Notes under the pieces: generated by a model
Told to the model about the DNA's origin: nothing
Seen by the model: the letters and a program-made list of their open reading frames with translations, nothing else
Databases searched by the model: none
Translations under genes and position numbers: made by a program
Shown: positions 37,163 to 64,000 of the stretch, piece after piece
How positions within the stretch are numbered: the stretch's first letter is position 1
Layout of the letters: every line of letters starts with the position of its first letter
NCBI RefSeq assembly: GCF_030813695.1
Contig: NZ_JAUSVA010000002.1
Span: 8,889,501 to 8,953,500 of the forward strand
Reading direction: 5' to 3'
DNA from: Kitasatospora herbaricolor
GTDB lineage: Bacteria > Actinomycetota > Actinomycetes > Streptomycetales > Streptomycetaceae
Length of the DNA: 64,000 nt

Positions 37163-37206
37163 GGCGTGGTGACGGCGCGGCTGCTGGGTCGCGCGGTCAC
37201 CACGCC
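37163..37206 (+). terminator. Hairpin between the small protein and hypA
   Basis: GGCGTGGTGAC (37163-37173) pairs perfectly with GTCACCACGCC (37196-37206), with a further inner GC stem. It is 57 bases after the small gene and 77 before hypA, so it may attenuate or process the transcript between structural and hyp genes. Confidence 0.55.
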
Positions 37207-37282
37207 TTGTAATGGGCCCGGACGAAGGCGCCGGCCCCACGGCAGGCGCCCACTGCGGCGACCACGCGCGGGAAGAAGGCCG

Positions 37283-37663: not shown

Positions 37664-37667
37664 AGCC

Positions 37668-40882: not shown

Positions 40883-40932
40883 ACGGCGGGTGAGCAGTTC
40901 GACCGGCCGCGGAGCAAGTGAAGGAGAGCCGG

Positions 40933-41229
40933 ATGTGCCTGGCAGTACCCGGAAGGGTTGTGGAGATCGAGGAGCGGGACGGTACCCGGATGGCCGTCGT
41001 CGACTTCGGCGGCGTGGTCAAGGACGTGTGCCTGGAGTACCTGCCGGACCTGGCGGTGGGTGAGTACGCCATCGTCCACGTCGGTTTCGCCCTGCAGCGG
41101 CTGGACGAGGAATCGGCCCGCAAGACGCTGGAGCTGTTCAACGAACTCGGCCTGCTGCAGGAGGAGTTCGGTGACCCGTGGGAGGCGGCCGCGGGCGCGG
41201 GTGCCGCCGCGAAGGAGGTGCAGCAGTGA
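40933..41229 (+). CDS. hypC: Hydrogenase assembly chaperone HypC
   Basis: This protein of 98 residues shuttles Fe(CN)2CO between HypD and the large-subunit precursor. [17 protein letters not shown] includes the essential Cys2, and [34 protein letters not shown] are typical. The C-terminal 20 residues are an Ala-rich extension. ATG at 40933 follows AAGGAGAG. Its stop overlaps the hypD start. Confidence 0.94.
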
Positions 41230-42380
41230 AGTACCTGGAGGAGTTCCGGGATCCGGAGCTGGCCCGCCGGCTGCTGGACGACATCCGCGCCACGGTGACC
41301 AGGCCGTGGGCGCTGATGGAGGTCTGCGGCGGGCAGACGCACACCATCATCCGGCACGGAATCGACCAACTCCTGCCGGAAGGCGTCGAGTTGATCCACG
41401 GACCGGGCTGCCCGGTGTGCGTGACGCCGCTGGAGGTGATCGACAAGGCGCTGGAGATCGCCTCCCGGCCCGGCGTGATCTTCTGCTCCTTCGGCGACAT
41501 GCTGCGGGTGCCCGGCACCGACCGCGACCTCTTCCGGGTGCGCGGCGAGGGCGGGGACGTCCGGGTGGTGTACTCGCCGCTGGACGCGCTGCGGATCGCC
41601 CAGCAGAACCCGGACCGCGAGGTGGTCTTCTTCGGCATCGGCTTCGAGACCACCGCGCCGCCCAACGCGATGACCGTGTACCAGGCGCGCAAGCTGGGGA
41701 TCCGCAACTTCAGCCTGCTGGTCTCGCACGTACGGGTGCCACCCGCCATCGAGGCCATCATGACCTCGCCGGACTGCCGGGTCCAGGGCTTCCTGGCGGC
41801 CGGCCACGTCTGCAGCGTGATGGGCGTGGACGAGTACCCGGAACTGGCCGAGCGGCACCGGGTGCCGATCGTGGTGACCGGCTTCGAACCGCTCGACATC
41901 CTGGAGGGGATCCGCCGCACCGTAAGGCAGTTGGAGCGCGGCGAGCACACCGTCGAGAACGCCTACCAGCGGGCGGTGCGGCCCGAGGGCAACCCCGCCG
42001 CCAAGGCCATGCTGGCGGACGTCTTCGAGGTCACCGACCGTGCCTGGCGCGGCATCGGGGTCATCCCGCAGAGCGGGTGGCGGCTGTCGCCGCGCTACCG
42101 CGACCAGGACGCCGAGCACCGCTTCCAGGTCTCCGGCATCACCACCGTCGAGCCGGCCGAGTGCCGCAGCGGCGAAGTCCTCCAAGGCCTGCTGAAGCCG
42201 AACCAGTGCGAGGCATTCGGCACCACCTGCACCCCGCGCAACCCGCTCGGCGCCACCATGGTCTCCAGCGAGGGCGCCTGCGCGGCCTACTACCTCTACC
42301 GGCGGCTCGGCCTGCCGGCCGCACCCCCGCCGGCCAGGTCGCTGCCGGTCGTCCCGCTGGAGGCGAGCCCCGTTGCCTGA
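41226..42380 (+). CDS. hypD: Hydrogenase formation protein HypD
   Basis: This protein of 384 residues binds a [4Fe-4S] cluster and, with HypC, assembles the Fe(CN)2CO unit. Signatures are [15 protein letters not shown] (about 32-47), [50 protein letters not shown] and C-terminal [20 protein letters not shown] with cluster cysteines. GTG at 41226 overlaps the hypC stop (GTGA). A TTG start of hypE overlaps its end. Length and motifs are normal. Confidence 0.94.
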
Positions 42381-43458
42381 CACCACGACCACCGTTCCCG
42401 CCCCGGCGGCGCCCGACTTCGCCAACTGGAGCTGTCCGCTGCCGCTGCGGGACCACCCGCGGGTGGTGATGGGCCACGGCGGCGGCGGGGCGATGTCCGC
42501 CGAACTCGTCGAGCACGTCTTCGCCCCCGCCTTCGGCGGACCGCTGCTGGCCTCGCTCGGCGACTCGGCGGCGCTCACCCTCGGCGGCGCCCGACTGGCT
42601 TTCTCGACCGACTCGTTCGTCGTCCGGCCGCTGTTCTTCCCCGGCGGCAGCATCGGCGACCTCGCGGTCAACGGCACTGTCAACGACCTGGCCATGAGCG
42701 GAGCCCGGCCGGCCTACCTGTCCTGCGCCTTCATCCTGGAGGAGGGCGTGGAGATGTCGTTGGTCGCCCGGGTCGCCCAGGCGCTCGGCGAGGCCGCCCG
42801 GCGGGCCGGCGTCGAGGTGGTGACCGGCGACACCAAGGTGGTCGAGGCCGGCCACGGGGACGGGATCTACCTCAACACCGCCGGGATCGGGCTGATCCCC
42901 GCCGGCGTGGACATCCGCGCGCAGCGGGCCGCGCCGGGCGACGTGGTGATCGTCAGCGGCGACATCGGCGTGCACGGCGTCGCGGTGATGAGCGTGCGCG
43001 AGGGGCTGGAGTTCGGCGTCCGGATCGAGAGCGACTGCGCGGCCCTGGGCGGGCTGGTGGAGGCGATGCTCGCGGTCACCCCCGACCTGCACGTGCTGCG
43101 CGACCCGACCCGGGGCGGGCTCGGCGCGGCGCTCAACGAGATCGCCGTCGCGGCCGGCGTCGGCGTGCTGGTCCAGGAGCGCGCCGTCCCGGTGCCGGAC
43201 GAGGTGGCCAACGCCTGCGCCGTCCTCGGCCTGGACCCGATGTACGTCGCCAACGAGGGCAAGCTGGTGGCCTTCGTCCCGCGTGAACACGCCGAGGCCG
43301 TCCTGGCGGCGATGCGGGCCCACCCGCTCGGCGCCCGGGCGGCCGTGATCGGGGAGTGTGTCGCCGACCACCCCGGGATGGTGGTCGCGCGGACCGGGCT
43401 CGGCGGCACCCGGGTGGTGGACCTGCCGATCGGGGAGCAGCTGCCCAGGATCTGCTGA
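42373..43458 (+). CDS. hypE: Carbamoyl dehydratase HypE
   Basis: This protein of 361 residues dehydrates the HypF-delivered carbamoyl on its C-terminal Cys to thiocyanate, which becomes cyanide on iron. It has the AIR-synthase-like [54 protein letters not shown] and [15 protein letters not shown] blocks and ends in LPRIC, the essential terminus. TTG at 42373 overlaps hypD by 8 bases. It ends the hydrogenase gene run; a strong hairpin follows. Confidence 0.94.
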
Positions 43459-43532: not shown

Positions 43533-43591
43533 ACCGTACGGGCCGTCAGTGCACGGGCCGTCACCGTTCGGGTCGTCGGCACACGGGTCGT
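43533..43591. repeat. Short direct repeats ACGGGC/TCGTCA
   Basis: Four near-copies of ACGGG[C/T]CGTC[A/G] at roughly 15-base spacing lie between the hypE hairpin and the stop codon of the YczR-like gene. They may be remnants or a second transcription-stop region. Confidence 0.5.
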
Positions 43592-44967
43592 CAGCGGGAG
43601 GGCGGCGGAGCGCAGGCCTCGTCGAGGATGTCCGCGATCCGGTCCAGGGTCGCCGCCGGCGGCGTCCAGGGCACCCGCAGGTAGCGGGCGAGCGTTCCGT
43701 CCACGGCGAAGCTGCTGCCGGGCGCGAGATGCAGCCCCGCGGCGGCCGCCCGGGTGGTCACGGTGTCGGCGCGCAGGCCGTTCAGCCGCAGCCACAGCAC
43801 CAGGCCGCCCTGCGGCACCGTGAACGTCCAGCGGGCGTCGGCCGCCAGCCGTCCGGCCAGGTGGTCGCGCTGGGAGCGCAGTTCGGCGCGTCGCCGTTCC
43901 AGCAGCGGTTCGAGCACGTCGAGCAGTTCGACGGCGACGAGCTGTTCCATCGGCGGCGCCGAGAGCGGTTCGCAGAGCGGGTGACGCAGCAACTCGCCGA
44001 TCAGGTCCGTGCCGGGTGCCCGGATCCAGCCCACCCGCACACCGGCCCAGACGGCCTTGCTGGCCGAGCCGACCAGGACGGCCCGCGGGATCCGTGCGGG
44101 CAGCGGCGCCGGCCCGGACAGGTGCAGGTCGCGCAGGGTCTCGTCGGCGACCACCGTCACCCGGTGTTCGGCCGCCGCCGCGGCGACCGCCTGCCGGGTG
44201 GGGGCGTCCATCAGCGCGCCCGTCGGGTTCTGGAAGTCCGGTACCAGGTAGGCCAGTCCGCCCCGAGCGGCGGCGAACGCGGCCCGCATCCGGTCCTCGT
44301 CCCAGCCCTCGGTGGTCACCCGCAGACCGGACAGGCGGGCCCCGGCCCCGCGCAGGACGGCGGCCGCGCGGGGGTAGGTCGGGTTCTCGACGGCGACCAC
44401 CCGGGGGCGCAGCCGAGCGGCGAGCAGGGCGAGTGCGGCGCGGGCGCCGGAGGTCACCAGGATCTGCTCGGCCCGGGTGGGGAGGCCCTCGCGGGTGTAG
44501 CGCCCGGCGATCGCCTCCCGGAGTTCGGGCAGCCCGGCGCCGGACCGGCCACCCTGCGCCAGTGCGGGACCGGCCCGCCGGGCGGCGCGCGCGGTGGCGG
44601 CCAGGTACTCGGCGCGCGGCGCGGCCGGGACGGCCCTGCGCAGGTCGATCGTGCCGGCACTGCCGTCCGCCGACGGTGGCGCGAACCGCTCGGCCGAGCT
44701 GGGCGGCAGCTGCACGGTACTGGCACTGCCGTGCCTGGTCCGCACCCAGCCGCCGTCCCGCAGCCGGGTCAGCACGGCCACCACCGTGCCGCGGCTGACC
44801 CCGAGGCCCTCGGCCAGCCGGCGCTCGGCCGGCAGCGCGCTGCCGACCGCCAGCCGCCCGTCCAGCACCGCCTCCCGAAGGGCGCCGTCCAGCGCGTCCA
44901 CCAATGGGACGGCGGTGGCCTGCCACTCGCCGAGCGCCCTGACCAGTTGCTCCACTCCGATGCGCAC
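43591..44967 (-). CDS. yczR: MocR/YczR-type GntR regulator with aminotransferase domain
   Basis: This protein of 458 residues has an N-terminal GntR winged helix (about 20-85: LVDALDGALREAVLDGRL, ALPAERRLAEGLGVSRGTV) and a fold-type I PLP aminotransferase domain (about 110-450) with PDFQNPTGALM and the PLP-lysine in GSASKAVWAGVRVGW. MocR proteins sense PLP or amino compounds. A YczE-type membrane protein is encoded divergently, the pair known as YczR/YczE in other bacteria, and an inverted repeat overlaps this start. The GTG at 44967 lacks a ribosome site; a GTG 12 bases in is possible. Confidence 0.85.
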   Translation of the reverse strand: MRIGVEQLVRALGEWQATAVPLVDALDGALREAVLDGRLAVGSALPAERRLAEGLGVSRGTVVAVLTRLRDGGWVRTRHGSASTVQLPPSSAERFAPPSADGSAGTIDLRRAVPAAPRAEYLAATARAARRAGPALAQGGRSGAGLPELREAIAGRYTREGLPTRAEQILVTSGARAALALLAARLRPRVVAVENPTYPRAAAVLRGAGARLSGLRVTTEGWDEDRMRAAFAAARGGLAYLVPDFQNPTGALMDAPTRQAVAAAAAEHRVTVVADETLRDLHLSGPAPLPARIPRAVLVGSASKAVWAGVRVGWIRAPGTDLIGELLRHPLCEPLSAPPMEQLVAVELLDVLEPLLERRRAELRSQRDHLAGRLAADARWTFTVPQGGLVLWLRLNGLRADTVTTRAAAAGLHLAPGSSFAVDGTLARYLRVPWTPPAATLDRIADILDEACAPPPSR

Positions 44968-48468: not shown

Positions 48469-48743
48469 TCGTTCCCGGAGGCGGACGGCCCGGCCGGGCG
48501 CGTGCGGGACGGCGGGCGCCGGGCACGGTGATCGGCCGTTGATCCCGCGTAGAACCCGGGCGTGGAGCATCGCGGTCGTAAGGGGAACCGGTCCAGTGGC
48601 TACAGCCGAAACCGGGATCCGGGCCGGCCGAACCGAGGCGGGCCCAGTCCCCGGCGCCCTGGGCGCAGGACTGAGGTCGTCAGTCTCGGGCCGAACCGGA
48701 GCTTCCGAGAGTGTTGTCCGAACGCGAGGAAAGGGGGGCTGGC
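48469..48743. other. Intergenic region before the cluster regulator
   Basis: About 275 bases after the strong hairpin, no gene seen. It should contain the promoter of the XRE/NB-ARC regulator; no element is convincing by eye. Confidence 0.4.
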
Positions 48744-50069
48744 ATGGACGGCGGTCAGCCGGTGTCGAGTTTTGGCGAGTTGCTCAAGGTACGGCGGGAG
48801 CGTGTCGGGCTGACCCAGCAGGGTCTGGCGGACCACGCGACGCTGAGCGTGCGGGCGATCCGCGACATGGAGACGGGACGCGTCCACCGTCCCCGGCACG
48901 AGACCGTCCGGCTGCTCGCCGACGCGCTGCGGCTGGAGGGGCGGAGCAGGGCCGCCTTCGAGGCGGCCGCCCGGCAGCAGGCGCCGGTGGAGGAACCCGT
49001 CGCACCGCCGGCCGCCCGCAACGCGATCGTCGGCCGGAGCACCGAGGCCGAGGTGCTGGCCGACGTCCTCACCGTGCACGGCGACCGGCTGGTGTCGGTG
49101 GTCGGTCTGGGCGGAGTGGGCAAGACCCGGCTGGCCCTGGAGGTGGCCCGGCGGCTGCACGAGTCGGTGCGCTGGGCGGTGCGCTGGGTGGCCTGCGGCG
49201 AGCGGGAGCCCGGCGGCCCGGGCGCGGCCTTCGCCGACCTGGTGGGCCGGCCCGGCCGGGCCGAGGGGCTCGCCGAGCAGATCGGCGACCGGCCCACCCT
49301 GCTGGTGCTCGACGGCGCCGACGGCGGCGTCAACGCCCCCACCCTCGACGACCTCTTCCACCGCTGCGCCGGACTGCGGGTGCTGATCACCTCCCGGGTG
49401 CCCCAGGGACTTGACGGCGAGCAGGTGATCCCGCTCGCGCCGCTGGAGACCCCGGCCCCCGAACTGGACGACGACCCGCAGCGGCTGGCCGAGGTCGGGG
49501 CGGTGCGCCTGCTGCTGTCGCACGTGCGCCGGGTGCGGCCCGGGTTCCGGCTCGGCCGGGAGGAGGGCGCGGCGGTCGGCGCGCTCTGCCGCTACCTGGA
49601 CGGCCTGCCCGGCGCCCTGGAACTCGCGGCCGGCTGGACCCTGGTCCAGTCGCCCGGCCAGCTGATGGCCCGGTTGTGCGGCAACCCCTTCACCCTCAGC
49701 TCGCCGTCCCCGCTCTGCCACGAGCGGGAGGACGTCCGCGACGCGCTCACCGGCGCCCTGCACCTGCTGAGCCCCCGTCAGCGCGCCCTGCTGGGCCTGC
49801 TGGCCGACGGTGAGCAGGGGTGGACGGTGGAGGAGGCGGTGGCGCTGAGCGGCCGGCCCGTCCAGGAATGCCTGGCCGTGGTGCACGAGCTGCTCTCCCG
49901 CGGGCTGGTACGGACGGTGGGCGGCGGCCAGGGCGGGGTCCGGTTCGCGGTGCTGAACCTCTTCCGGGTGCTGTGCCGGGAGGAGCGGGAGAACTGGCTG
50001 TCGGCGGCGGCCGCCCGCAGCGAGGAGCGTTCGGGGCCGTACCCCCTGCTGGAGGCCCTCGCCGGGTGA
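48744..50069 (+). CDS. XRE-type regulator with NB-ARC/STAND ATPase domain
   Basis: This protein of 441 residues has an N-terminal Cro/C1 helix-turn-helix (FGELLKVRRERVGLTQQGLA, RAIRDMETGRVHRPRHETV, about 8-75) and a STAND/NB-ARC ATPase (about 95-380) with Walker A VVGLGGVGKTRLALEVARRL, Walker B TLLVLDGADGG, VLITSRVPQGL and LDGLPGALELAAGWTLV. The TPR sensor normally at the end of AfsR/SARP-type STAND proteins is absent; only a short C-terminal winged-helix-like part is present. ATG at 48744 follows GGAAAGGGGGG. Its position at the start of the NRPS locus suggests a pathway regulator. Confidence 0.82.
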   Translation: MDGGQPVSSFGELLKVRRERVGLTQQGLADHATLSVRAIRDMETGRVHRPRHETVRLLADALRLEGRSRAAFEAAARQQAPVEEPVAPPAARNAIVGRSTEAEVLADVLTVHGDRLVSVVGLGGVGKTRLALEVARRLHESVRWAVRWVACGEREPGGPGAAFADLVGRPGRAEGLAEQIGDRPTLLVLDGADGGVNAPTLDDLFHRCAGLRVLITSRVPQGLDGEQVIPLAPLETPAPELDDDPQRLAEVGAVRLLLSHVRRVRPGFRLGREEGAAVGALCRYLDGLPGALELAAGWTLVQSPGQLMARLCGNPFTLSSPSPLCHEREDVRDALTGALHLLSPRQRALLGLLADGEQGWTVEEAVALSGRPVQECLAVVHELLSRGLVRTVGGGQGGVRFAVLNLFRVLCREERENWLSAAAARSEERSGPYPLLEALAG

Positions 50070-50332: not shown

Positions 50333-50776
50333 GTGGAGCGTGGAAAGGCCGGAAAAGCCGGACTGAATGTCGTGGTGACCACCATGGTCTCCGATTCGCA
50401 CACCTGGAATCTGGTGTTTCTCCAGCTGCTGCTGGAAGAACTCGGCCACCGGGTGACGAATCTGGGCCCGTGCGTCCCGGACGACGTCATCACCGCCGAA
50501 TGCCGGCGGCGCCGACCCGACCTGGTCGTCCTCAGCAGCGTCAACGGGCACGGATACAACGACGGCCTGCGGGTCATCGCCGGGCTGCGCGCCTGCCCGG
50601 AGCTGCGCGGCACGCCGATCGTCATCGGCGGGAAGCTGGGCATCGCGGGGGCGGAGGACGGCGCCCGCGCCCGGACCCTGCTCGCGGCCGGCTTCGACGC
50701 GGTCTTCGAGGAGGCCGCCTCGGTGGACGCCTTCCGCTCCTACGTCCGCTCGCTGCCGGCCGGAGTGCTGTTGTGA
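50333..50776 (+). CDS. B12-binding glutamate mutase S-subunit-like protein
   Basis: This protein of 147 residues is a cobalamin-binding domain: VVTTMVSDSHTWNLVFLQLL contains the axial His of the D-x-H motif (D-S-H-T-W-N; the usual final Gly is Asn), then VVLSSVNGHG and IVIGGKLGI. It corresponds to the small subunit of methylaspartate (glutamate) mutase, which with coenzyme B12 converts L-glutamate to (2S,3S)-3-methylaspartate. GTG at 50333 follows GAGGGG. Its stop overlaps the large-subunit start (GTGA). Paired mutase genes like this supply 3-methylaspartate in streptolydigin biosynthesis (SlgE1/SlgE2). Confidence 0.82.
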   Translation: MERGKAGKAGLNVVVTTMVSDSHTWNLVFLQLLLEELGHRVTNLGPCVPDDVITAECRRRRPDLVVLSSVNGHGYNDGLRVIAGLRACPELRGTPIVIGGKLGIAGAEDGARARTLLAAGFDAVFEEAASVDAFRSYVRSLPAGVLL

Positions 50777-52053
50777 CGGCGTTCGGGCCGTTCGTGGCCG
50801 GCGCCCGGGCGGCGGGCGCGCTGGTGGTGCAACCACGGATGGGGATGAGCGAGCCCGACCGGATGCGGGCCGGCCTGCTCGCCACCAGGAACGCGGCCGC
50901 CACCACCGTCGGCACCGTCACCCTGGACAGCTACACCCGCACCGGCGAGCTGGCCGCGGCCCGCCGGGCCGTCGCCGAGGGCGTCCCGCTCAACGGCTAC
51001 CCGATCACCAGCTACCCGCCCGGGGTCACCCGGTCCGTGCTGCACGGCGTCGCCGACGACAGCTTCCCGGTCCAGGTCCGGCACGGCTCGGCCCGCCCCG
51101 AGAAGATCTTCGCGGCGCTGCTCGCCGCCGGCCTGCACGCCACCGAGGGCGGCCCCGTCTCGTACTGCCTGCCGTACAGCCGCACCCCGCTGCCCGAGGC
51201 CGTCGACAGCTGGAGACGCTGCTGCGAGCTGCTGGCCGCCTCCCGGACGGCCGGCGCCGAACCGCACCTGGAGACCTTCGGCGGCTGCATGATGGGCCAG
51301 CTCTGCCCGCCCGGCCTGCTGATCGCGCTCAGCGTGCTGGAGGGCCTCTTCTTCCGGCAGCACGGGCTGCGCAGCATCTCGCTCAGCTACGCCCAGCAGG
51401 CCAGCACCCGCCAGGACGAGGAGGCGGTGACGGCCCTGCAGGCGATCGCCGCCGAGCTGCTCCCGGACGTGGACCGGCACGTGGTGATCTACACGTACAT
51501 GGGCGTCTACCCGCTGTCGCCGGGCGGCGCGCAGCTGCTGCTGGACGAGGCGGCCCGGCTCGCCGTCCGGACCGGCGCGGCCCGGCTGATCGTGAAGACC
51601 ACCGCCGAGGCGTACCGCATCCCCACCGTCGGGGAGAACGTCCGGGCGCTGGAGAGCGCGGCCGCCGTCGCCGCGGGTGAGCGGCGCAGCCCGCCGGGTG
51701 CAGCCCCCGACACCGGGATCCGCGCCGAGGCCCGGCACCTGATCGACGCCGTCCTCGACCTGCACCCGGACATCGGCCGCGCGCTGGTGCTGGCCTTCGC
51801 CAAGGGCTACCTGGACGTCCCGTACTGCCTGCATCCCGACAACGCCGGCCGCGCCCGCAGCAGGCTCGACCCCGACGGTCGGCTGCACTGGTCGGACCCC
51901 GGGTCGATGCCGATCGGCCGGGCCGGCCGCGCCCGTTCCGCCCCCGCGCTCAGCTCCACCGAACTGCTCGGTGCGCTGTCGTACGTACAACGCACCTACG
52001 ACCGGCGGGCGTTCCGTACCCCGGTCGCGGGCGGGATCCACGTCGCCCGCTGA
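50773..52053 (+). CDS. Glutamate mutase E-subunit-like protein
   Basis: This protein of 426 residues matches the catalytic TIM-barrel subunit of methylaspartate mutase: MRAGLLATRNAAATTVGTVT, DSYTRTGELAAARRAVAEG, LNGYPITSYPPGVTRSVLHG, QVRHGSARPEKIFAALLAAG (substrate arginine and acidic residues), EGGPVSYCLPYSRTPL and IVKTTAEAYRIPTVGENV. It is shorter than the usual 480 residues, mainly in the C-terminal part. GTG at 50773 overlaps the S-subunit stop, so a stoichiometric complex is likely. It should rearrange L-glutamate to 3-methylaspartate with the S subunit and B12. Confidence 0.82.
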   Translation: MTAFGPFVAGARAAGALVVQPRMGMSEPDRMRAGLLATRNAAATTVGTVTLDSYTRTGELAAARRAVAEGVPLNGYPITSYPPGVTRSVLHGVADDSFPVQVRHGSARPEKIFAALLAAGLHATEGGPVSYCLPYSRTPLPEAVDSWRRCCELLAASRTAGAEPHLETFGGCMMGQLCPPGLLIALSVLEGLFFRQHGLRSISLSYAQQASTRQDEEAVTALQAIAAELLPDVDRHVVIYTYMGVYPLSPGGAQLLLDEAARLAVRTGAARLIVKTTAEAYRIPTVGENVRALESAAAVAAGERRSPPGAAPDTGIRAEARHLIDAVLDLHPDIGRALVLAFAKGYLDVPYCLHPDNAGRARSRLDPDGRLHWSDPGSMPIGRAGRARSAPALSSTELLGALSYVQRTYDRRAFRTPVAGGIHVAR

Positions 52054-52222: not shown

Positions 52223-53224
52223 ATGACCGTGCAGACCGCGCAAGGGCCCACGCCGCCGGCCGACCCCGGCAGGCACCTGGCGTCCCCGACCACGCGCAGC
52301 GCGCTGCGCATCCAGCACCACCTGCTCGGCGCCGCGCGGGAGTTCCTGCGCGGGGAGGGCTTCACCGAACTGCTGCCGCCGGTCATCGGGCCGGTCACCG
52401 ACCCGGGCGCCCGGGGCTCCAAGCAGGTGGACATCGACTTCTACGGCCACCGCTACAAGCTGATGACCAGCGCCATCCTCTACAAGCAGGCCTCCCTGCT
52501 GGCCTTCGACAAGATCTTCTGCGTGGCCCCGAACGTCCGGCTGGAACCCCTGGAGACGGCCGGCACCAACCGCCACCTGGTCGAGTTCCACCAGCTGGAC
52601 GTCGAGGTCGCCGGCGCCTCCCGGGAGCAGATCACCGCACTGGTCGAGCAGTTGGTCGTGCACATGGTGCGCAGCACCGTCGCCGCGCTGCCCGCCGAGT
52701 TCGAGGAGCTCGGCCGGGACACCGACGCCTTCCACGGCCTGCTCCAGGGCGCCTTCGAGCGGGTCCGGCACAGCGACGCCGTGCTCGACCTCCGGGCGGC
52801 CGGGCACGACCAGAACCCCGACGCCGAACTCGACTGGGAGGGCGAGGCGCTGCTCTCCGCCAAGGCCGGCCGCCCGTTCTTCGTCACCGACTACCCCAAG
52901 GGCTCGCGCGGCTTCTACGACCGTGAGTGCCCCGGCGAGCCCGGCCTGCTGCGGAACTTCGACCTCATCGCGCCCGAGGGCTACGGCGAACTGTGCAGCG
53001 GCAGCGAACGGACCAACGAGTACGCCGACATCATCACCCGGATGCGGGAGACCGGCGAGAACCCGCAGAAGTACCGCTGGTACCTCGACCTGGTCCGCGA
53101 GGGCATCCCCGCCAGCGCCGGCTTCGGCATCGGCGTGGAGCGCCTGACCCGGTACGTCGCCGGCCTGGACGCCGTCTGGCAGGCCAGCGCCTACCCCAAG
53201 CTCGCCGGGGTGGTCTCGCCGTGA
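52223..53224 (+). CDS. Asparaginyl-tRNA-synthetase-like amide ligase
   Basis: This protein of 333 residues is a class II synthetase catalytic core without an N-terminal anticodon-binding domain. Motif 2 is NVRLEPLETAGTNRHLVEFH (about 105-126), with ELDWEGEALLS, FFVTDYPKGSRGFYDRE, and motif 3 AGFGIGVERLTRYVAGL (about 295-311). It resembles the archaeal AsnRS-paralogue asparagine synthetase (AS-AR), which makes asparagine from aspartate, ammonia and ATP, rather than a translation enzyme. In this cluster the likely substrate is 3-methylaspartate, giving 3-methylasparagine, which is inference. ATG at 52223 is chosen. The stop overlaps the next start (GTGA). Confidence 0.75.
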   Translation: MTVQTAQGPTPPADPGRHLASPTTRSALRIQHHLLGAAREFLRGEGFTELLPPVIGPVTDPGARGSKQVDIDFYGHRYKLMTSAILYKQASLLAFDKIFCVAPNVRLEPLETAGTNRHLVEFHQLDVEVAGASREQITALVEQLVVHMVRSTVAALPAEFEELGRDTDAFHGLLQGAFERVRHSDAVLDLRAAGHDQNPDAELDWEGEALLSAKAGRPFFVTDYPKGSRGFYDRECPGEPGLLRNFDLIAPEGYGELCSGSERTNEYADIITRMRETGENPQKYRWYLDLVREGIPASAGFGIGVERLTRYVAGLDAVWQASAYPKLAGVVSP

Positions 53225-54489
53225 GCGACCTCGCCGCACCCGGGTTCCCCGAGGAGGCCGTCCGCCTGCGGGCCAGGACCGGCGCCGCCGCCGCCTTCCC
53301 GCCCGCCGGGGACTACGGGCAGGTGCTGTTCGGCGCCGGGCCGGACGGGCCGGACGGCCTCGGCGGCCCGCCCGACCGGCTGGACGCACTGCGCCTGACC
53401 CCGCCGGTGTTCATGGAGCAGCGGCTGGCCAAGCTCATCGACCTCGGCCGCGAACCCACCTACCAGGACGTCGACCTGTCGACCACGATCGGCGGCCTGC
53501 GCTCCACCGCGCCGGTCTACGTCTCGGCGCTCGGCTCGACCCGCGCCGCCGGCGGTGACCTCGGGCTGGCGCTCAGCCGGCAGGCCGGGGCGCTCGGCAT
53601 CCCGATGGTGATCGGGGAGAACGTCGTCCCGGTGAACGGCTACGGCCGCCTCGGCGAGGCGGCGGGGCGCTCGCTGCTCGGCCGCCTCACCGCCTACACC
53701 GAGCGACTCGCCGACGGCGTCGGCGGGGTCGCGGTGCAGCAGAGCACCGAGGACGCCGACGCCGAGGTCTGGAACCTCGTGCACAGCGACCCGGCCGCCC
53801 GGCCGCTGCTCGACTCCGGCCGCCTCGCCTTCGAGCTGAAGGTCGGCCAGGGCGCGAAGCCAGGCCTCGGCGGGATGACCGTGCTGGACGCGGCCGCGGC
53901 CGCCCGGGTGGCGGACCGCTACGGTCTGGACCCGCTCTTCGAGGGGCAGCGGGTGCTGCGCTCCAGCAGCCCCGGCACGTTCACCGAGGAGATCCTGCGC
54001 CAGCAGGTCCGGCTGATGCGCAACAACTTCCCCCGGGTGCGGATCTGGGTGAAGCTCCATCCGGGCCGGGACGTCGCGGCGGCCGTGCGGACGGCCGTCG
54101 AGGCCGGCGCGGACGCGGTGACCGTGGACGGCGCCGAGGGCGGCACCGGCTGGGCGCCCGCGGCCTTCCCCCGGCACGTCGGGCTGCCGCTCGCCGAGTG
54201 CCTGCGCCGGCTCGGCGCCCTCCCGTCCGGCCCGCCGCCCGGCCGGCTGCTGGTCTCGGGCCGGATGTGGGAGGGCAGCCGGGCGGTGAAGAGCCTGGCG
54301 CTGGGCGCCACGGCGGTCGGCCTCGGCCGCGCGGCCCTGCTCGCGGTCGCCGAGGACCCGCAGGACGGCCTGGTCCGCCTGGTGGAATGCCTCGGCACCG
54401 AGATGCGGCTGCTGATCAGCTCGCTCGGCAAGTACGCGCCGGGCACGCTCGGGCCGGAGGACGTGTGGTCCCCCGCCGAGGAGAACTGA
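53221..54489 (+). CDS. Stand-alone glutamate synthase FMN-domain protein
   Basis: This protein of 422 residues is the TIM-barrel FMN domain of the glutamate synthase family: APVYVSALGSTRAAG, FELKVGQGAKPGLGGM (about 200-215), and ADAVTVDGAEGGTGWAP (about 298-314). The glutaminase domain and the Cys motif of the [3Fe-4S] cluster (CHxxTCPVG in normal enzymes) are absent. Ferredoxin-dependent glutamate synthase-like SlgE3 supports glutamate supply in the streptolydigin pathway beside its mutase, and this gene may play the same role, or transfer an amino group to another 2-oxo acid. GTG at 53221 overlaps the AsnRS-like stop. Confidence 0.75.
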   Translation: MSDLAAPGFPEEAVRLRARTGAAAAFPPAGDYGQVLFGAGPDGPDGLGGPPDRLDALRLTPPVFMEQRLAKLIDLGREPTYQDVDLSTTIGGLRSTAPVYVSALGSTRAAGGDLGLALSRQAGALGIPMVIGENVVPVNGYGRLGEAAGRSLLGRLTAYTERLADGVGGVAVQQSTEDADAEVWNLVHSDPAARPLLDSGRLAFELKVGQGAKPGLGGMTVLDAAAAARVADRYGLDPLFEGQRVLRSSSPGTFTEEILRQQVRLMRNNFPRVRIWVKLHPGRDVAAAVRTAVEAGADAVTVDGAEGGTGWAPAAFPRHVGLPLAECLRRLGALPSGPPPGRLLVSGRMWEGSRAVKSLALGATAVGLGRAALLAVAEDPQDGLVRLVECLGTEMRLLISSLGKYAPGTLGPEDVWSPAEEN

Positions 54490-54793: not shown

Positions 54794-57700
54794 ATGATGT
54801 CCTCCAGCGAATTCCCGTTCCTCCCGGCGGCCCGCCGCCACCCGTCCCGTCCGGCGGTCCGCCGGGCCGGCCGAACGGTCACCTACCGCGAGCTGGACGA
54901 GCTGAGCGGCGCGCTCGCCGGGGAGATCGCCCGGGAGACCGCCCCGGGCCAGGTCGTCGCCGTCACCGCCGACGACCGGTTCGACCACCTGGTCGGGATG
55001 CTGGCCGTGCTCCGGGCCGGCCGGGTCCACCTCCCGCTCGACCCGCAGGCACCCGAGGAGCGGAACCGGGCGATCCTGGACGGGGCCGGCGCGGCCGCCG
55101 TCCTGACGGGCGGCCGGCTCACCGTCCGCCCGGGCGCCGCGGCCGGCACCGCCGGCCCGGCCGGGTACGTGATCCACACCTCCGGCACCACCGGCACCCC
55201 CAAGGGCGTCCTCGTTTCGCTGGACGCCCTGACCGGGCACCTCCACGCCATCGTGGCCCGGTTCGGGCTGACCGAGGACGACGTGGTGCTGCAGTTCGCC
55301 CGGCCCACCGTGGACGTGGCGATCGAACAGATCCTCGGCGCACTGGCGGCCGGGGCCTGCCTGGTCCTGCCGGAGCGCCAACTGCTCACCCCGGCCGAGC
55401 TGCTCGACCTGCTGGACGCCGAAGGCGTGACCGTCGCCAACCTGTCCGCCGGCTACTTCCAGGAGCTGGTCGCCGCACTGCCCGGGCGCGCCGCGCCGGG
55501 CACCCTGCGGCTGATGATCTCCGGCAGCGACCGGCTGCACCCGGCCACCGCGGCCGGCTGGCACCGGCTCACCGGGGTACCCCTGCTGAACGCCTACGGT
55601 CCCACCGAGACGGTGATCACCGCGACCGTCCACACCGCGACCGTCCACACCGCCGCCGGCGACAACACCGCCGCCGTCGTGCCGATCGGCGAGGCCCTCG
55701 GCGGGCGCACCCTGCACATCCTCGACGAACGGCTGCGCCCCTGCCCGCCCGGCACCGCCGGCGAGCTGTACATCGGCGGCCCGCTGCTCGCCTGGGGCTA
55801 CTGCGGCCGGCCCGGGCCGAGCGCCGAACGCTTCGTCGCCGACCCCTGGTCCGCCGCCCCCGGCGCCCGGATGTACCGCACCGGGGACCTCGTCCGGCGG
55901 CCGCACGAGGGAGCTCCGCCCGAGTACCTGGGCCGGGCCGACCAGCAGGTGAAGATCCGCGGCTTCCGGGTCGAGCCCGGCGAGATCGAGGTCGCCCTGG
56001 CCGGCTGCCCGGGCGTCGCCGGCTGCGCCGTGGCCGCCCACGAGGGCCGGCTCGCCGCCTACGTCACCGCCTCGGACACCGCGCCCGTCCCCGACTACGC
56101 CCGGGCCCGGGCCTTCCTGGCCGGCCGGCTGCCCGAGCACATGATCCCCGCGACGCTCACCGTGCTGGCCGGGTTCCCGCTGACGGCCGGCGGCAAGGTC
56201 GACCGCGCCGCGCTGCCGGCGCCGGAGGCCGCCGAGTCCCGCCGCCCCGGCCACCGCCCGCCGCGCACCGCGGCCGAGCAGCTGATCGCCGCCGTCTGGT
56301 CCGACGTGCTCGGCGTCGCCGAGGTCGGCGCCGACGACAACTTCTTCCACCTCGGCGGGGACTCGCTGACCGCCGTCCGGGTGGTCGGCCGGGTCTACGA
56401 GGTGTTCGGCATGGTGTCGCCGTACACCATCTTCGACGCGCCGACCCTCGCCGAGTTCGCCGCCGCCGTCACCGCCTCCGCCGGCCCCGAGCAGCCGCCG
56501 CTGACCGCCCGCGGCCTCACCCGGGCACCGCTGTCCAAGTACCAGCGCGGGCTCTGGTTCCTGGAGCAGTGGAACCCCGGCGCGGCCACCTACAACGTGC
56601 CCTGGGTTTTCCGCTTCCACGGCCCGGTCGAGACCGAACTGCTGCGCGCCGCCCTGGAGACGGTGGTCGCCCGGCACCAGAGCCTGCGGACCACCTTCGT
56701 CCTCGGCGAGGACGGCCCCGAGCAACTCGTCCATGAGCGGATCGAGTTGCCCTTCACCGTCCTGGACAGCCCGGCGGAGCAGCCCGACGCGCTGGTCGCC
56801 GAACTGGCCCGGGAACCCTTCGACCTGGAGCACGGGCCGCTGGTGCGCGCCCACGCCGTCCGCACCCCCGACGGCGCGACCACCCTGCTGCTGATGTTCC
56901 ACCACATCGTCTGGGACGAGGGCTCGCTGCCCGTCCTGGAGCAGGAACTCCAGGAGCTGTACGCGGCGCTGCGCGAGGGACGCGACCACGTCCTGCCCGA
57001 ACTCCCCGTCCAGTACACCGACTACAGCGCCTGGCAGTACGAGGACGAGAACGCCGAGGAGCGGCTCGCCCACTGGCGCACCGCGCTCGCCGACGCCCCG
57101 CAGACCCCGGTGCTGCCCACCGACCACCCCCGCCCCGAGATCCAGGCCTTCCGCGGCGCCTTCCACCGCTTCGCGCTGCCGACCCCGGTCGCCCGCGCGG
57201 TGCGCGAGTTCGCCCGCAGCGAGGACGCCACCCCGTTCATGGTGCTGCTGGCCGGCCTGGCGCTGACCCTGCACCGCCGCTCCGGCCAGCGGGACATGGT
57301 CCTCGGCACCCCGGTGAGCCTGCGCGGACGCACCGAACTGAACGGCCTGATCGGCTACTTCATCAACCTGCTGCCGCTGCGCCTGCGGCTCGCCGAGGAC
57401 GCGGACTTCCGTGAACTCGTCCAGCACGTCCGCGAGGTGGCGATCGGTGCCTACCGGCACCAGGACACCCCCTTCGACGAGATCACCGCACTCGTCCTGG
57501 ACGACCGGCCGGAGGACCGCAACCCGCTCTGCCAGGTGCTGCTCGAACTGCACCCGCTGGACACCCGGCCGCTCACCGTCGGGGAGAGCGAGGTCACCCG
57601 TGCCCTGCACTCCAACGAGGTGTCCCGGTTCGACCTGTCGATCTCCGTCGACGACCTCGGTACCGGCTTCACCGGGCGCTTCGAGTACGACAGCGACCTG

Positions 57701-59509
57701 TTCGACCCCGAGACCGTCGCCGGCCTCTGCGACAGCTGGGCAAACACCCTGGCCGCCGCCGTCGACCCCGCCGCGCACACCCTCTTCGAGGCCCGGGCCG
57801 AACTCGCCCCGCAGGCCACCGCCGTGGTCGAGGGCGACACCGGGCTGGCGCTGACCTACGGGGAGCTGAACACCCGGGCCAACCGGCTCGGGCACTTCCT
57901 GGCCGGCCGCGGGGTCGGCCGGGGTGACGTCGTCGCGATCCTGACCGAACGCGGCCACGATCTGGTGGTGGCGCTGCTCGCGGTGCTGAAGACCGGCGCC
58001 GGCTACACCCTGCTCGACCCGGACTTCCCCGCCGAGCGGCTGGCCGGTGCCGTCGCGGACAGCGGCGCCGCGCTGGTCCTCACCCACCGCCACGCCCCCG
58101 CGCCGTTCGAGGGCACCGCCCACCTCGACCTCGACGAGGTGGCCGGGGAGGTGGCCCGCTGCCCGGGGCAGGACCTCGCGCTCCCGGTCACCGGCGACGA
58201 CCTGGCCTGCGTGATGTTCACCTCCGGCTCCACCGGCCGCCCCAAGGGCGTCGCGGCCCCGCACCGGGCGCTCACCACCACCTACCTCGGCCAGGACTAC
58301 GCCCGCTTCGGCCCCGAGGAGGTCTGGTTGCAGTGCTCGCCGGTCTCCTGGGACGCCTTCGCGCTGGAACTGTACGGCGCCCTGCTGTTCGGCGGCACCT
58401 GCGTGCTGCAGCCCGGCCGGCGGCCCGACCCGGAGACCATCGCCACCCTCACCCGGCGCCACCGGGTCACCCAGCTCCAGCTCTCCGCCAGCCTGTTCAA
58501 CTTCCTGCTGGAGGAGTTCCCGCAGACCTTCGACCACCTCAAGGTGGCCTTCACCGCCGGCGAGCGGGCCTCGGTGACCCATGTCGCCAAGGCCCTGGAG
58601 AACCACCCGCGGCTGGTGGTCGCGAACGGCTACGGGCCGGTGGAGAGCCTCGGCCTGACCACCTGCCACCAGGTCGGCCCGCAGGACCTCGGCGGTACCT
58701 CGATCCCCATCGGCCACCCGCTGAACGGCAAGGAGATCCACGTCCTGGACGCCGCACTGCGCCCGGTCGGCCCCGGTGAGAGCGGCGAACTCTATGCCGC
58801 CGGGGGCGGGTTGGCGTACGGCTACCTGGGCCGGCCGGCCCTCACCGCGGGCCGCTTCGTCGCCCACCCGTACGGCCGGCCGGGGGAGCGGCTCTACCGC
58901 ACCGGGGACCTCGGGCACCGCACCGAGGACGGCACGCTGGAGATCACCGGACGGATCGACGACCAGATCAAGATCCGCGGGTTCCGGGTCGAACCGGGTG
59001 AGATCGAGGACGCCCTGACCAGCCACCCGCTGGTCCGGGAGGCCGCCGTCACCGTCCACGAACCGGCCCCCGGGGACAAGCGGCTGGCCGCCTACATCAC
59101 CGCCGGACCCACCCCGCCCGACATCGACGCCCTGCTCGCCGAACTGGGCGGCCGGCTCCCCGAGTACATGATCCCCGCCACCGTCGACATCCTCGACGCC
59201 CTGCCGCTCAACCCCAACGGCAAGACCGACCGCCGGGCGCTGCCCGCCCCGGCGCCCCGGCCGGCACCGGGCCCGGCGGCCGCCGCGCTGGACGGGATGG
59301 AACTGCTGGTGGCCGACGCCGTCCGAGCCGTCCTTGACCTGCCGCAGGTCGGCCGGGACGACAACTTCTTCCGGATCGGGGGCAACTCGCTGGCCGCCGT
59401 CCGGGTCGCGATGCGGCTCTCCCGGGAGACCGGTACCAAGGTGGCGCCGCACGTGGTGTTCCGGGCGAAGACCGTCGGCGCGATCGCCGAACGGCTCACG
59501 GCCCGGTGA
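54794..59509 (+). CDS. NRPS, A-T-C-A-T (initiation plus one extension module)
   Basis: This protein of 1571 residues holds adenylation A1 (about 5-480: [39 protein letters not shown]), thiolation T1 with [12 protein letters not shown] (Ser about 525), condensation C (about 560-985) with [14 protein letters not shown], where the last residue of HHxxxDG is Glu, adenylation A2 (about 990-1470: [37 protein letters not shown]) and T2 with [12 protein letters not shown]. With no N-terminal C domain it should start a peptide. No epimerase, methyltransferase or thioesterase is present. By-eye binding-pocket residues are D-V-E-N-M-S-A-I-T for A1 and D-A-L-Q-F-A-G-G-L for A2; neither is a code I can name. 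ATG at 54794 or 54797. Confidence 0.9.
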
Positions 59510-59633: not shown

Positions 59634-62600
59634 GTGACCTCCACCGAAGAGCCGGCCCGGGTCGCCCCCGTGTCGGGGCTGCAGAGGGGCCTGTGGTTCC
59701 TCGACCGCTGGAACCCCGGAGCGGCCACCTACAACATCCCCTGGGTGTTCGAGTTCACCGGCGCCCTCGACCTGGTGCGACTGGAGAGCGCCCTGGGCGC
59801 CCTGGTGGCCCGGCACGAAGCCCTGCGCACCATCTTCGCCCTGCACGAGGACGGCCCGCGCCAGCACGTCCGGCACAGCCCGGCCGTCCCCTTCACGGTG
59901 ACCGACCTGCGGGCCCTCGACGAGCGGGAGAGCGCCCGGCGCGCCGAGGAGCTGATCGCCGCCGAGGCGGCCGCACCCTTCGACCTCGAACAGGGCCCCC
60001 TGCTGCGGGCGTCGGTGCTCCGCACCGGGGAGCAGCGGGCCACCATGGCCGTGGTCGTCCACCACATCGTCTGGGACGGCTGGTCGGCCGACGTCTTCGA
60101 GCGAGAGCTGGCCGAGCTCTACAGTGCCGCCGTGGCCGGCCGCGCGGCCGAACTCCCGGTGCTCACCACCCAGTACGCCGACTACGCGGCCGAGGAGCAG
60201 GCGCAGTCCTTCGAGGAGCACCTGGCCCACTGGAAGCTCCAGCTCGACGGGGCACCGGGCCTGCTGGAGATCCCCGGCGACCGCCCGCGCCCCGCCCACC
60301 GGAGCCACCACGGCGCCACCGAGCCGTTCGCCCTGGAGCCGGGCACCGCCGCCCGGGTCAAGCACCTGGCGGAGGAGGAGGGCGTCACCCCGTTCATGGT
60401 CATGCTGGCCGCCTTCGCGCTGCTGCTGCACCGCTGGACCGGCGCCGAGGACATGGTGATCGGCACCCCCGTCACCACCCGCAACCGCCCCGAACTGGAG
60501 AACCTGGTCGGCTACTTCGTCAACCTGCTGCCGCTGCGGGTCCGGCTCGCCCGGACGATGACCTTCCGCGAGCTGCTGGAGCACGTCCAGGAGGTCGCCT
60601 TCGAGGGCTACGCCTACCTGGACGTCCCCTTCGACCAGCTGGTCGACCGGCTGGCACCGGACCGCTCGGCCCAGCACGCCCCGCTGGTCCAGGTGGTGTT
60701 CGGCGCGCACGCCGAGGACGCCGCCGCGCTGCGCTTCGGCGAGGCCCTCGCCGAGCGGGCCGTCCGCTCCAACGGCACCAGCAAGTTCGACCTGACCTGG
60801 TCCGTCTTCGACAGCGGCGAGCTGCGCGGCGAGGCCGAGTACCGCACCGACCTGTTCGACCCGGCGACGGTCCGCCGGATGGCCGCCGACTGGCAGACCT
60901 TGCTGACCGCCGCCCTCGACCACCTGGACCGCCCGCTGCGCGAGCTCGGCACCCCCGCGAGCGCCGGCCGGCCCGCCCGGATCCCGCAGGGCCGCTGCCT
61001 GCACCAGCTCTTCGAGGACGCAGCCGACCGCCACGGCGAGCGGACCGCCCTCACCGACGGGGCCCGCGCGCTCACCTACACCGATCTGGACGAGCGCGCC
61101 AACCGCCTCGCCCACGCGCTGACCGCCGCCGGCGTCCGCCGCGGCGACCGGGTCGGCCTGCTGCTCGACCGGACCGCCGACATCGTGGTGAGCGTCCTCG
61201 CCGTCCTCAAGGCCGGCGCCGCCTACGTCCCCGTCGACCCGGCCGCACCGGCCGGCCGCGCGGCCACCGTGTTCGGCGACACCGGCGTCACCCTCGTCCT
61301 CACCGACCTGCCCGACCGGGTGCCGGAAGGCCCCTGGCTGCGCCACGACCTCGCCGCCCGGGCCGCGGAGACCGCCACGATGCCCGCCACCCGCCCGCGG
61401 GCCGGCGCCCGCCCCGGCGACACCGCCTACGTGATCTTCACCTCCGGCTCCACCGGCCGTCCCAAGGGCGTCGCGATCGCCCACGAGCACGTCAGCCGCC
61501 TGATGGCGGCCGGCGCCGAACACTTCGGCTTCGGCCCGCAGGACGCCTGGACGCTCTTCCACAGCTACGCCTTCGACTGGACGGTCTGGGAGATCTGGGG
61601 CGCCCTGCACCACGGCGCCCGGCTGGTCGTGGTGCCCTACCTGACCAGCCGCTCGCCCGAGGAGTTCGCCCAACTGCTGGACGAGGAGGGCGTGTCCCAC
61701 CTCTGCCTCACCCCGTCCGCGCTGCGCCAGCTGGAACCGGCCCTGCGCCGGCGCCCGAGGCCGCTGCCCGCGCTGAAGCAGATCATGCTGGGCGGCGAGG
61801 CCCTCGACCCCGCCGTCGTCCAGCGCTGGCTCGACCTCGATCCGCTGCCGCCGGCCCGGATCTGCAACCTCTACGGGATCACCGAGACCACCGTCCACGT
61901 CACCACTTTCGACATCGCCGGGCCCGGCGCCACCGGCGGGTTCGAGCGCAGCCTGATCGGCGAGGCGATGCCGCACCTCGACGCGCTGGTGCTCGACGAC
62001 TGGCTGCGGCCCTGCCCCGAGGGCGTCCCCGGCGAGCTGTACATCGGCGGCGGCAGCCTCGCCCACGGCTACTGGCAGCGCCCCGGCCTCAGCGCCGCCC
62101 GGTTCGTCGCCGACCCCTACGCCGGCGTCCCCGGCGCCCGGATGTACCGCACCGGGGACGTCGCCAAGCGGCTGCCGGGCGGCGGCCTGGAGTACGTCGG
62201 CCGTGCCGACTTTCAGGTGAAACTGCGCGGCTTCCGGATCGAACTCGGCGAGATCGAAAACGCGTTGAGCGCCCACCCGGACGTCGACGCCTGCGTGGTC
62301 ACCGTCCACGACCAGCGCCTCGCCGCCTACCTGACCGGCCGGGCGCCCGAACGGGTCCGCGAGTTCCTGGCCCGCACCCTGCCGGACTACATGATCCCGG
62401 CGAGCGTCACCGTCCTGGACGCCCTGCCGCTGACCGTCAACGGCAAGGTCGACCGGGCCGCCCTGCCGGCCCCCGGCGCCCCCGCGGCGGCCGGTGGGCG
62501 CCACGTACCGCCACGCACCGCCGCCGAGCGGGCCTTCGCCGACGCCTGGTCACGTGTCCTCGGCATCGACGAGGTCGGAGTCCACGACGACTTCTTCCAC

Positions 62601-64000
62601 CTCGGCGGCGACTCCATCCGCGCCGTCCAACTGGCCGGCCACCTGCACGAGGCGGGCTGGACGGTCTCCCTGCGGGACGTCTTCGGCGCCCCCACCGTCT
62701 CCGAACTGCTGCCCCTGGCCCGGCCGGTGACCGCCGCGGCCGCGGCCGACCAGCCCTTCGCCCTGCTCGACCCCGAGGACCGCGCCGCCCTCCCGCCGGG
62801 CCTCTCCGACGCCTACCCGATGGTCTCCATGCAGCTCAGCATGGTCTTCCACATGGAGATCGCCGGCGGCACCGACAGCTACCACAACGTCAACAGCTAC
62901 CGGATCTCGGCCGCCCTGGACGAGACCGCCTTCCGCCGGGCGGTGGCCGAAGTCCTGGACCGGCACCCGGTGTTGCGCACGGGCCTCGACCTGTCCGGCT
63001 ACCGCGAGCCGCTCCAGCTGGTGCACGGCGAACTGCCCGCACCCGTCGAGTTCGCCGACCTGCGCGGCACCGACACCCAGGACGAGGCCGTCCGCGCCGT
63101 CTTCGAGCACCACCGCTCCACCCCCTTCGACCTGATGGAACCGCCGCTGCTGCGGATCACCGTGCAGCGCCTGGCCGACCAGGTCTTCCAGCTCACCCTG
63201 TCCGAGCACCACGCCATCCTGGACGGCTGGAGCTTCACCTCGCTGCTCACCGAACTCCTGGAGCGGCACGCCGAACTGGCCGCCGACCCGGCGAGTCCGC
63301 CCGCACCCGCCCCCCGCTCCGCCTTCCGCGACTTCGTCACGGTCGAACGGGAGGCCGCCGCCGACGCCGACTCGCTCGCCTACTGGCGCGCCAAGCTGGC
63401 CGGTGTCAGCGGTGAACTGTGGCCCGGCAGCAGCGAGGTGCACGAGGTGCCCCGGACCCTGGAGCGGGTGCTCCCGGCGGCGCCCGGCCAGCTGCGGCTG
63501 GTCGCCGACGCGGCCGGCGTCCCGGTCAAGTCGGTCGCGCTCGCCGCCCATCTGCGGGCGCTCCGGGCGATCACCGGGCGGGACCGCGTCACCACCGGCC
63601 TGGCGATGAACGGACGGCTGGAGCGGCGCGGCGGCACCGAGGTGCTGGGGCTCTTCCTCAACACCGTGCCGCTGGTCGGCGAGCCGGTCGACGACGACCC
63701 GCTGGCCCTGGTGCGCGCCGTGCACCGGGAGGAGCTGGAGATGATGCCGCACCGGCGGGTGCCGTTCGCCCGGCTGGCCCGGCTGATGGCCGACACCCGG
63801 CTCGACAGCCAGTTCGGCTACCTGCGCTTCCACGCCCTGGGCACGCTCAGCTCCGCCCGGATCGTGGACGCCCGGATCGGCTGCGAGCCGACCATGCGGC
63901 ACGAACCCAACAGCTTCGCCTTCGGCGCCTCGCTCATCCAGGACCCGGTGTCCGACCGCGTCCTGCTGGCCGTCGACCACCAGCGGTCGGTGGTGCCCGA
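59634..64000 (+). CDS. NRPS, C-A-T-C... (runs off the right edge)
   Basis: At least 1455 residues. C1 begins directly ([19 protein letters not shown]) with [11 protein letters not shown] at about residue 141. Adenylation A1 follows (about 470-930: [52 protein letters not shown]), then T1 with [12 protein letters not shown], and a second C domain with [12 protein letters not shown] near residue 1200, open at 64000. The pocket by eye is D-W-W-C-M-G-L-V-H, not a code I can name. GTG at 59634 has AAGGAAGG upstream and 124 bases separate it from the first NRPS, so they share an operon. Its first C domain is closely similar to that of the preceding protein, so one may derive from the other by duplication. 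Confidence 0.9.

Follow-up and report, generated by a model that had tools for sequence, protein, structure and literature searches.

A SlgZ-type asparagine-synthetase-like protein in a nonribosomal peptide cluster of Kitasatospora herbaricolor, its probable role in methylasparagine formation and its constant FMN-protein partner

What is the task of a protein built like the catalytic core of an asparaginyl-tRNA synthetase (AsnRS), when its gene stands among those of a nonribosomal peptide synthetase (NRPS) cluster? The question is raised by an open reading frame at 52223..53224 (+ strand), encoding 333 amino acids from an ATG start, in a stretch of 64,000 nucleotides of Kitasatospora herbaricolor, positions 8889501-8953500 of its contig, that we analysed as a whole and call the window. 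An original prediction saw in it an amide-bond ligase that would turn methylaspartate into methylasparagine, a role new to this fold in bacteria, and proposed comparing its predicted structure with that of the archaeal AsnRS paralogue, AS-AR.

The gene belongs to a row read in one direction (+ strand). A probable cluster regulator with an HTH and an NTPase (STAND-like) domain lies at 48711..50069 (Pfam HTH_31 and AAA_16), its position suggesting that it is part of the cluster. It is followed by a MutS-like B12-binding subunit of glutamate mutase at 50333..50776 (PF02310, 48.5 bits; NF002612/TIGR01501 under cut-off), whose start codon is uncertain (GTG 50333 or 50414), and by MutE, the catalytic subunit of the mutase, at 50773..52053 (PF06368, 269 bits; TIGR01503, 146 bits, under cut-off). 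The stop of the synthetase gene overlaps by four bases, GTGA, with the start of a gene at 53221..54489 for a glutamate-synthase-like (GltS-like) FMN barrel protein of the SlgE3 type (422 amino acids; PF01645, 74 bits, and PF01070, 56 bits). Two NRPS genes complete the row, both assigned by Pfam: N1, at 54794..59509, with the order A-T-C-A-T, its first adenylation (A) domain read partly from the sequence and from its code; and N2, C-A-T-C, at 59634..64000, with an uncertain start codon, which leaves the window and stops at 64088 in the extended sequence. Past the window edge lie a stand-alone A-T protein, a thioesterase, a P450, MbtH, TauD, a four-module NRPS with thioesterase and an MFS exporter. 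The extended cluster has eight A domains in total, and most of their codes could be assigned to no known amino acid. To the left of the NRPS cluster, a NiFe hydrogenase set occupies 30150-43458 of the window (small and large subunits, maturation protease, cobW/HypB-like, HypF, HypD and an AIR-synthase-like HypE), and a MocR/PdxR-type regulator, in which a GntR domain is joined to one of the aminotransferase kind, is encoded at 43591-44967 on the - strand.

The synthetase has a sole Pfam match at E up to 0.1, to PF00152 (tRNA synthetases D, K and N), over residues 19-327 and with 180 bits. Against the NCBIfam model NF005052, 'asparagine synthetase A', it scores 458 bits and exceeds the curated cut-off of 368; it stays under the cut-offs of the AsnRS models NF003037 (192 bits against 414) and TIGR00457 (164 against 342.6), and far under those of the AspRS and LysRS models. 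We rejected an asparagine synthetase A of the E. coli type (AsnA), because Pfam finds PF00152 alone at E up to 0.1 and no AsnA domain, and also AsnB, because the protein has no glutaminase (GATase) or Asn_synthase domain. A protein 100% identical to the window synthetase occurs in Kitasatospora indigofera JCM 4646.

Neither Pfam nor the superposition of an AlphaFold model reveals an N-terminal anticodon-binding (OB) domain. The model, computed from an alignment of 38 relatives (pLDDT 83.9, pTM 0.86), matches, with its residues 13-332, the entire archaeal enzyme 3rl6, an asparagine synthetase (its residues 1-292), at Z 28.2 and 2.6 A over 271 residues. Its residues 6-332 superpose on AsnRS 1x54 as well, at Z 33.3 and 3.2 A over 307 residues, but on no part of that chain before residue 112; in the VIA-align lists from which these matches come, the absence of a PDB entry excludes nothing. 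The match to 3rl6 in its full length, and to 1x54 no earlier than residue 112, shows a complete core that lacks the anticodon-binding domain. The original prediction was right in this respect, and the comparison with AS-AR that it proposed yields an alignment to the complete archaeal enzyme.

Which substrate would such a core accept? Residues were tabulated for 110 family loci (103 distinct cores) and for 26 other PF00152 proteins of the same bacterial class, aspartate--tRNA(Asn) ligases included. Motif 2 (R106, E108, R117, H118, E121, F122) and motif 3 (GFGIGVERL, R307), described as intact in the original prediction, are retained in 108 to 110 of the 110 family loci. Both K88 and D126 are found in 110/110, and the same residues, K and D, in 23 of the 26 controls each. 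Elsewhere family and controls part: T82 (109/110) stands against Q in 24/26, I85 (108/110) against Q in 25/26, N104 (110/110) occurs in none of the 26 and Q124 (109/110) in two, and S298, present in all 108 loci that have a residue there, is replaced by H in 25 of the 25 controls that have one. E262, common to AS-AR, is no fixed mark of the family, with E in 85 and Q in 20 of the 110 loci.

In the printed PDB alignments, the archaeal AS-AR chains 1nnh and 3p8t share I85, K88, N104, Q124, D126, E262 and S298 with the window synthetase, and the SxILxKQ / QLDxE / SAGxG signature of AS-AR is present in it, judging from these alignments and from the family counts. The same printed alignments give K and D at the K88 and D126 columns of AspRS 1wyd, and L or A at the first column and E at the second in two AsnRS chains. 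This glutamate, E228 of P. horikoshii AsnRS, which we take to recognise the asparagine side chain, is absent from the D126 column in 110/110 family loci. From what governs recognition in AspRS and AsnRS, D and K at these two positions indicate an aspartate-type substrate. The active site reads as fitting an aspartate analogue, in the manner of AS-AR and not of AsnRS; K88 and D126, being of the AspRS type, are compatible with activation of the alpha-carboxylate, too.

Overall similarity of the family is much the same to both groups, about 29-32% identity each. The AS-AR proteins (Pyrococcus; 3p8t, 3reu, 3rl6 and 1nnh), archaeal enzymes of primary metabolism, are likewise catalytic cores alone and carry the same signatures, whereas the window family is longer by about 40 residues and is located in secondary-metabolite clusters. 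With the catalytic domain of AsnRS (1x54, 5zg8) the window synthetase shares the fold, motifs 2 and 3 and about 30% identity; it differs in lacking the anticodon-binding domain and in having K88, D126, I85 and S298 in place of the AsnRS residues. The closest PDB sequence by bits is AsnRS 1x54, which might speak for a tRNA-charging enzyme, either a fragment or a spare copy. We reject this role as scarcely credible, given the missing anticodon domain and recognition residues of the wrong type, without the AsnRS glutamate in any family locus; moreover, an aspartate--tRNA(Asn) ligase is encoded separately in the genome (L003, 379 bits against a cut-off of 353).

Streptolydigin is a tetramic acid made by PKS and NRPS together, with a plain N-methyl amide as side chain, and its cluster in Streptomyces lydicus is like that of the window in several genes. 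The family-level search returned a locus (L197, genome G666) in which the ORF at 5061-6764 on the - strand equals PDB 4gr5 in 567/567 residues; 4gr5 is SlgN1 of streptolydigin, according to the entry on SlgN1 in PMC11253843. It stands among deoxysugar genes, and its surroundings include a nucleotidyltransferase, sugar epimerases, a hexose 2,3-dehydratase, a P450, a glycosyltransferase and an allene-oxide-cyclase-like gene. SlgN1 is adjoined by the genes of the FMN protein and of the synthetase, and the glutamate mutase genes MutS and MutE, unlike those of the window, are on the strand opposite to SlgN1 and the synthetase, the end of MutE being some 2 kb away from SlgN1 and 5 kb away from the synthetase. 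The L197 synthetase is 67% identical to that of the window over 321 residues, without a gap, and SlgE3 is 65% identical to the window FMN protein.

From the gene position and from the passage of PMC5357945 on these genes, we infer that the L197 synthetase is SlgZ, an 'asparaginyl-tRNA synthetase-like' protein published in 2011 with SlgE1/E2/E3; that passage assigns SlgZ and SlgE1-E2-E3 to tetramic acid formation. The window synthetase is an orthologue of SlgZ and not a new kind of gene, and the expected novelty of the fold's use in bacteria does not survive this precedent, nor the fit to the NCBIfam asparagine synthetase A model. The kinship does not extend to whole clusters: with its eight A domains, its P450, TauD and MbtH genes, no KS motif match in L005 and a kinship to SlgN1 of only 58%, the window cluster was rejected as a streptolydigin cluster. 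The precedent also bears on the idea that the synthetase is a ligase joining methylaspartyl-AMP to some other amine or to a carrier protein. Stand-alone class II cores do such jobs, and EpmA is among the weak NCBIfam matches of the synthetase, but the signatures that it has in common with AS-AR, and the published assignment of SlgZ to streptolydigin's amide-bearing tetramic acid (the same passage of PMC5357945), make this very improbable.

The kinship reaches the NRPS as well. The second A domain of N1 (N1-A2, 57785..59227) has 4gr5, or SlgN1, as its best PDB match with 558 bits, against 245 to 280 bits between 4gr5 and three other A domains of the window; it is 58% identical to SlgN1, and the pocket codes, at positions that we assume to be those of GrsA, are DALQFAGGL and DALQIGGGF. 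This SlgN1-like domain is the likely acceptor of the cassette amino acid. N4-A1 and N4-A4 of the window cluster, 48% identical to SlgN1 each, may be further candidate acceptors. Among the 73 distinct cassette loci in which an A domain was called, 32 have an SlgN1-type code; among the seven such mutase-only loci, none has it. A standard Asn/Asp-type A domain (DxTK code) is weak as a rule for cassette clusters, holding in only 6 of the 73 distinct loci. A recurring A domain with the code DAYYWGSFA lies some kilobases from the cassette in L196, L200-L203, L206, L208, L214, L104, L107 and L122, with the variant DAFYWGSFA in L191 and L205; the contig of L122 stops after MutE.

Because the pocket of N1-A2 has no basic residue for a carboxylate, we take it to favour methyl-Asn. 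The review PMC11253843, in its entry for SlgN1, lists (2S,3S)-beta-methyl-Asp and not methyl-Asn as the substrate, so that amidation could come after loading: the synthetase would then act on a methylaspartyl residue already loaded, or already in the peptide, and not on the free amino acid. We consider this order of events unlikely. The SlgN1-type pocket (DALQIGGGF), as we interpret its code, has a glutamine and no basic residue for a side-chain carboxylate, and the same cassette is found in a type of cluster, described below, that has ATP-grasp proteins and mostly no A domains in reach. Furthermore, the substrate of AS-AR is free aspartate, which we also count against amidation after loading. 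Beta-methyl-Asn itself, the residue predicted for the cassette, is contained in omnipeptin, a metagenomic bacterial NRPS product, according to the description of that peptide in PMC6710260; the window cluster is probably not the omnipeptin cluster, since omnipeptin has 11 residues.

Where would the methylaspartate come from? In the actinobacterial pathways to vicenistatin (VinH/VinI) and friulimicin (GlmA/GlmB), glutamate mutases supply (2S,3S)-3-methylaspartate, as the mutase of the window would, and the passages on them in PMC9113097 and PMC11284099 describe no amidation partner. In a set of 65 loci of close relatives, obtained with exact peptide patterns, the fetched flanks contain a GltS-like gene in 65, MutE in 63 and MutS in 61, which bears out the predicted coupling of the synthetase gene to a mutase and a glutamate-synthase-like gene: the linkage of synthetase, MutE and GltS-like protein is far beyond chance. 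The two exceptions, L007 and L043, have no MutE in reach; none was found in the genome of L007, and one in that of L043.

A sample of 394 genomes, drawn evenly from the class, permits a comparison of the genes one by one, in counts that take no account of genome relatedness. The synthetase exceeds its cut-off in 6 of the 394, the scores dropping from 404 to 150 bits, and the full-length FMN protein occurs in the identical six only, adjoining the synthetase in each, with a drop from 621 to 80 bits. MutE exceeds its cut-off in only 19 of the 394 genomes, in 20 copies, of which six, one in each of the six synthetase genomes, adjoin the synthetase; this 6/6 speaks for methylaspartate as the substrate. 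Near the remaining 14 copies, neither synthetase nor FMN gene was found within the fetched stretches, three of which are short (L122, L123 and L125), L122 ending just past MutE; a search of the whole genomes found no full-length FMN gene in them, although draft genomes may miss one. By our own arithmetic, which ignores the kinship of the genomes, 6/6 versus 0/14 gives p = 1/38760.

Taken together, what is observed of the gene content, of the predicted fold and the residues in its active site, of the relation to the streptolydigin genes and to their A domain, and of co-occurrence suggests a substrate, a carboxylate, a nucleophile, a product and an order of steps. The MutS/MutE mutase of the same row would convert glutamate to (2S,3S)-3-methylaspartate; the synthetase would activate its beta-carboxylate with ATP to an acyl-adenylate, as AS-AR does with aspartate, and transfer the adenylated methylaspartate to ammonia, giving 3-methylasparagine; the resulting amino acid would be loaded by the SlgN1-like second A domain of N1, with the GltS-like FMN protein as a constant partner of the synthetase and not of the mutase. 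The window gene is thus an SlgZ orthologue that probably amidates methylaspartate to methylasparagine, fed by MutS/MutE and feeding N1-A2. The activity put forward originally stands as the best reading because of the aspartate-type site, the AS-AR-like signatures, the linked mutase and the matching SlgN1-like A domain, and inference supports it well; its novelty in bacteria is what SlgZ takes away.

The partnership with the FMN protein can be followed in a second collection, of 394 Streptomycetaceae genomes. The synthetase is present in 64 of them (in 63 above cut-off) and the FMN protein in 64, and both sets are identical; at 62 of the 68 synthetase loci the FMN gene is next, on the same strand and within 400 bases. 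Of these 68 loci, 40 were fetched, with most Kitasatospora loci left out: the FMN gene is in 39 and the mutase in 37. At L195 the fetched stretch has neither, and both are on another contig of the genome. In two genomes, G534 (L179) and G501 (L215), synthetase and FMN gene share a cluster with NRPS genes, at a distance of 6-8 kb from each other; the cluster of G534 also carries an L-amino acid ligase, and no MutE was found genome-wide in either. These genomes, with synthetase and FMN gene and without MutE, indicate that methylaspartate is not the substrate everywhere. In G501 the cluster is present twice, near both contig ends.

Other arrangements are looser. Synthetase and FMN gene are on different contigs in G646 and G452. 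In G459, whose cassette is diverged or broken, the better-scoring FMN gene is far away, and only a diverged match (45%) stands beside the synthetase; in G433 and G489 the FMN gene is in two pieces. The loci L069 and L212 (Streptacidiphilus sp. 4-A2) combine a short synthetase match with an FMN gene of low identity, and their cassette looks broken or diverged. On the whole, the counts suggest that synthetase and FMN protein belong together as a single functional unit. We did not find the pairing in the literature searched, which did not take in the two 2011 SlgZ papers; the window gene being one more SlgZ, its constant pairing with an SlgE3-type FMN protein may be what is new.

What does the FMN protein do? 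In print, in the part of the SlgZ literature reached through PMC5357945, SlgE3 has the role of a glutamate synthase of the ferredoxin-dependent type. The window protein has the FMN barrel motifs QGAKPGxGG and GGTG (alignment to 7mfm). No glutaminase (GATase) domain was found in it by Pfam, PF01645 aligning from profile position 137 onward. Glutamate synthases have a three-cysteine motif for a 3Fe-4S cluster; no conserved cysteine triad was found here, only the C328 column being invariant among 62 sequences. Among the structure matches listed for its model (pLDDT 76.8), FMN hydroxyacid oxidases are the best, with Z about 27. Since the FMN protein tracks the synthetase and not the mutase, supply of glutamate to the mutase is disfavoured as its role, and its reaction is to be sought in or after amide formation. 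The evidence speaks against glutamate supply, and the accepted role looks doubtful: it is co-occurrence that puts the published glutamate-synthase assignment in doubt. It may deliver nitrogen, oxidise or reduce the aspartyl group once this is activated or amidated, or play a supportive part.

A bolder reading makes one two-protein enzyme of the synthetase and the GltS-like FMN protein, the latter, for example, providing nitrogen as the nucleophile, or working on the adenylate or on the amide. The product may then be more than plain methylasparagine, and the reading is compatible with the main one. The identical 64 Streptomycetaceae and identical six class-level genomes, the FMN gene so regularly next to the synthetase on the same strand, the GTGA overlap in the window and the survival of the pair without a mutase in G501 and G534 all point this way. 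However, inheritance as a compact operon can yield an equal pattern without physical or chemical coupling, the genes are on separate contigs in G646 and G452, far apart in G459 and 6-8 kb apart in G501 and G534, no chemistry is known for such an enzyme, and the streptolydigin side chain is merely an N-methyl amide. We hold it to be a real but tentative possibility. In its general form, which we rate alike, SlgZ-type and SlgE3-type proteins may be an obligate two-protein enzyme across several unrelated secondary-metabolite pathways, mutase present or not, in which the FMN protein is no glutamate synthase feeding the mutase and joins in nitrogen delivery or redox modification of the activated (methyl)aspartyl group. 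If true, the pair would represent a novel type of amide synthetase, one coupled to a flavin.

Whether or not the two proteins are so coupled, amidation of methylaspartate by the synthetase remains our preferred reading for the window, and the pair is a handle for genome mining: present in 64 of 394 Streptomycetaceae genomes, in several kinds of NRPS cluster and in the ATP-grasp type, it leads one to expect products that contain methylasparagine or some other amidated aspartate. In the ATP-grasp type (L047-L063, L065 and L067, from Nocardia, S. griseofuscus and others), the cassette pair and the mutase occur with two ATP-grasp proteins, mostly with no A domains in reach, so the product probably serves ligases, too, as a free amino acid, besides NRPS. 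These clusters also hold a protein of about 500 amino acids without Pfam match, a luciferase-like monooxygenase, a flavin reductase and an MFS exporter, the domains having been read in L055. The type, for example L055:1031-9419, is found in Nocardia, Streptomyces, Streptacidiphilus and Cellulomonas, and resembles an unknown small-peptide pathway. A KS motif search of the cassette loci found almost no PKS near the cassette. At L046:12433-14106, directly behind the cassette, an AsnB-type asparagine synthase with GATase and Asn_synthase domains puts two kinds of amide synthetase in one place. Finally, near the cassette at L044:2580-8043, homocitrate-synthase-like, aconitase (two parts), isopropylmalate-dehydrogenase-like and aminotransferase genes suggest a pathway for 2-oxo-acid chain extension.
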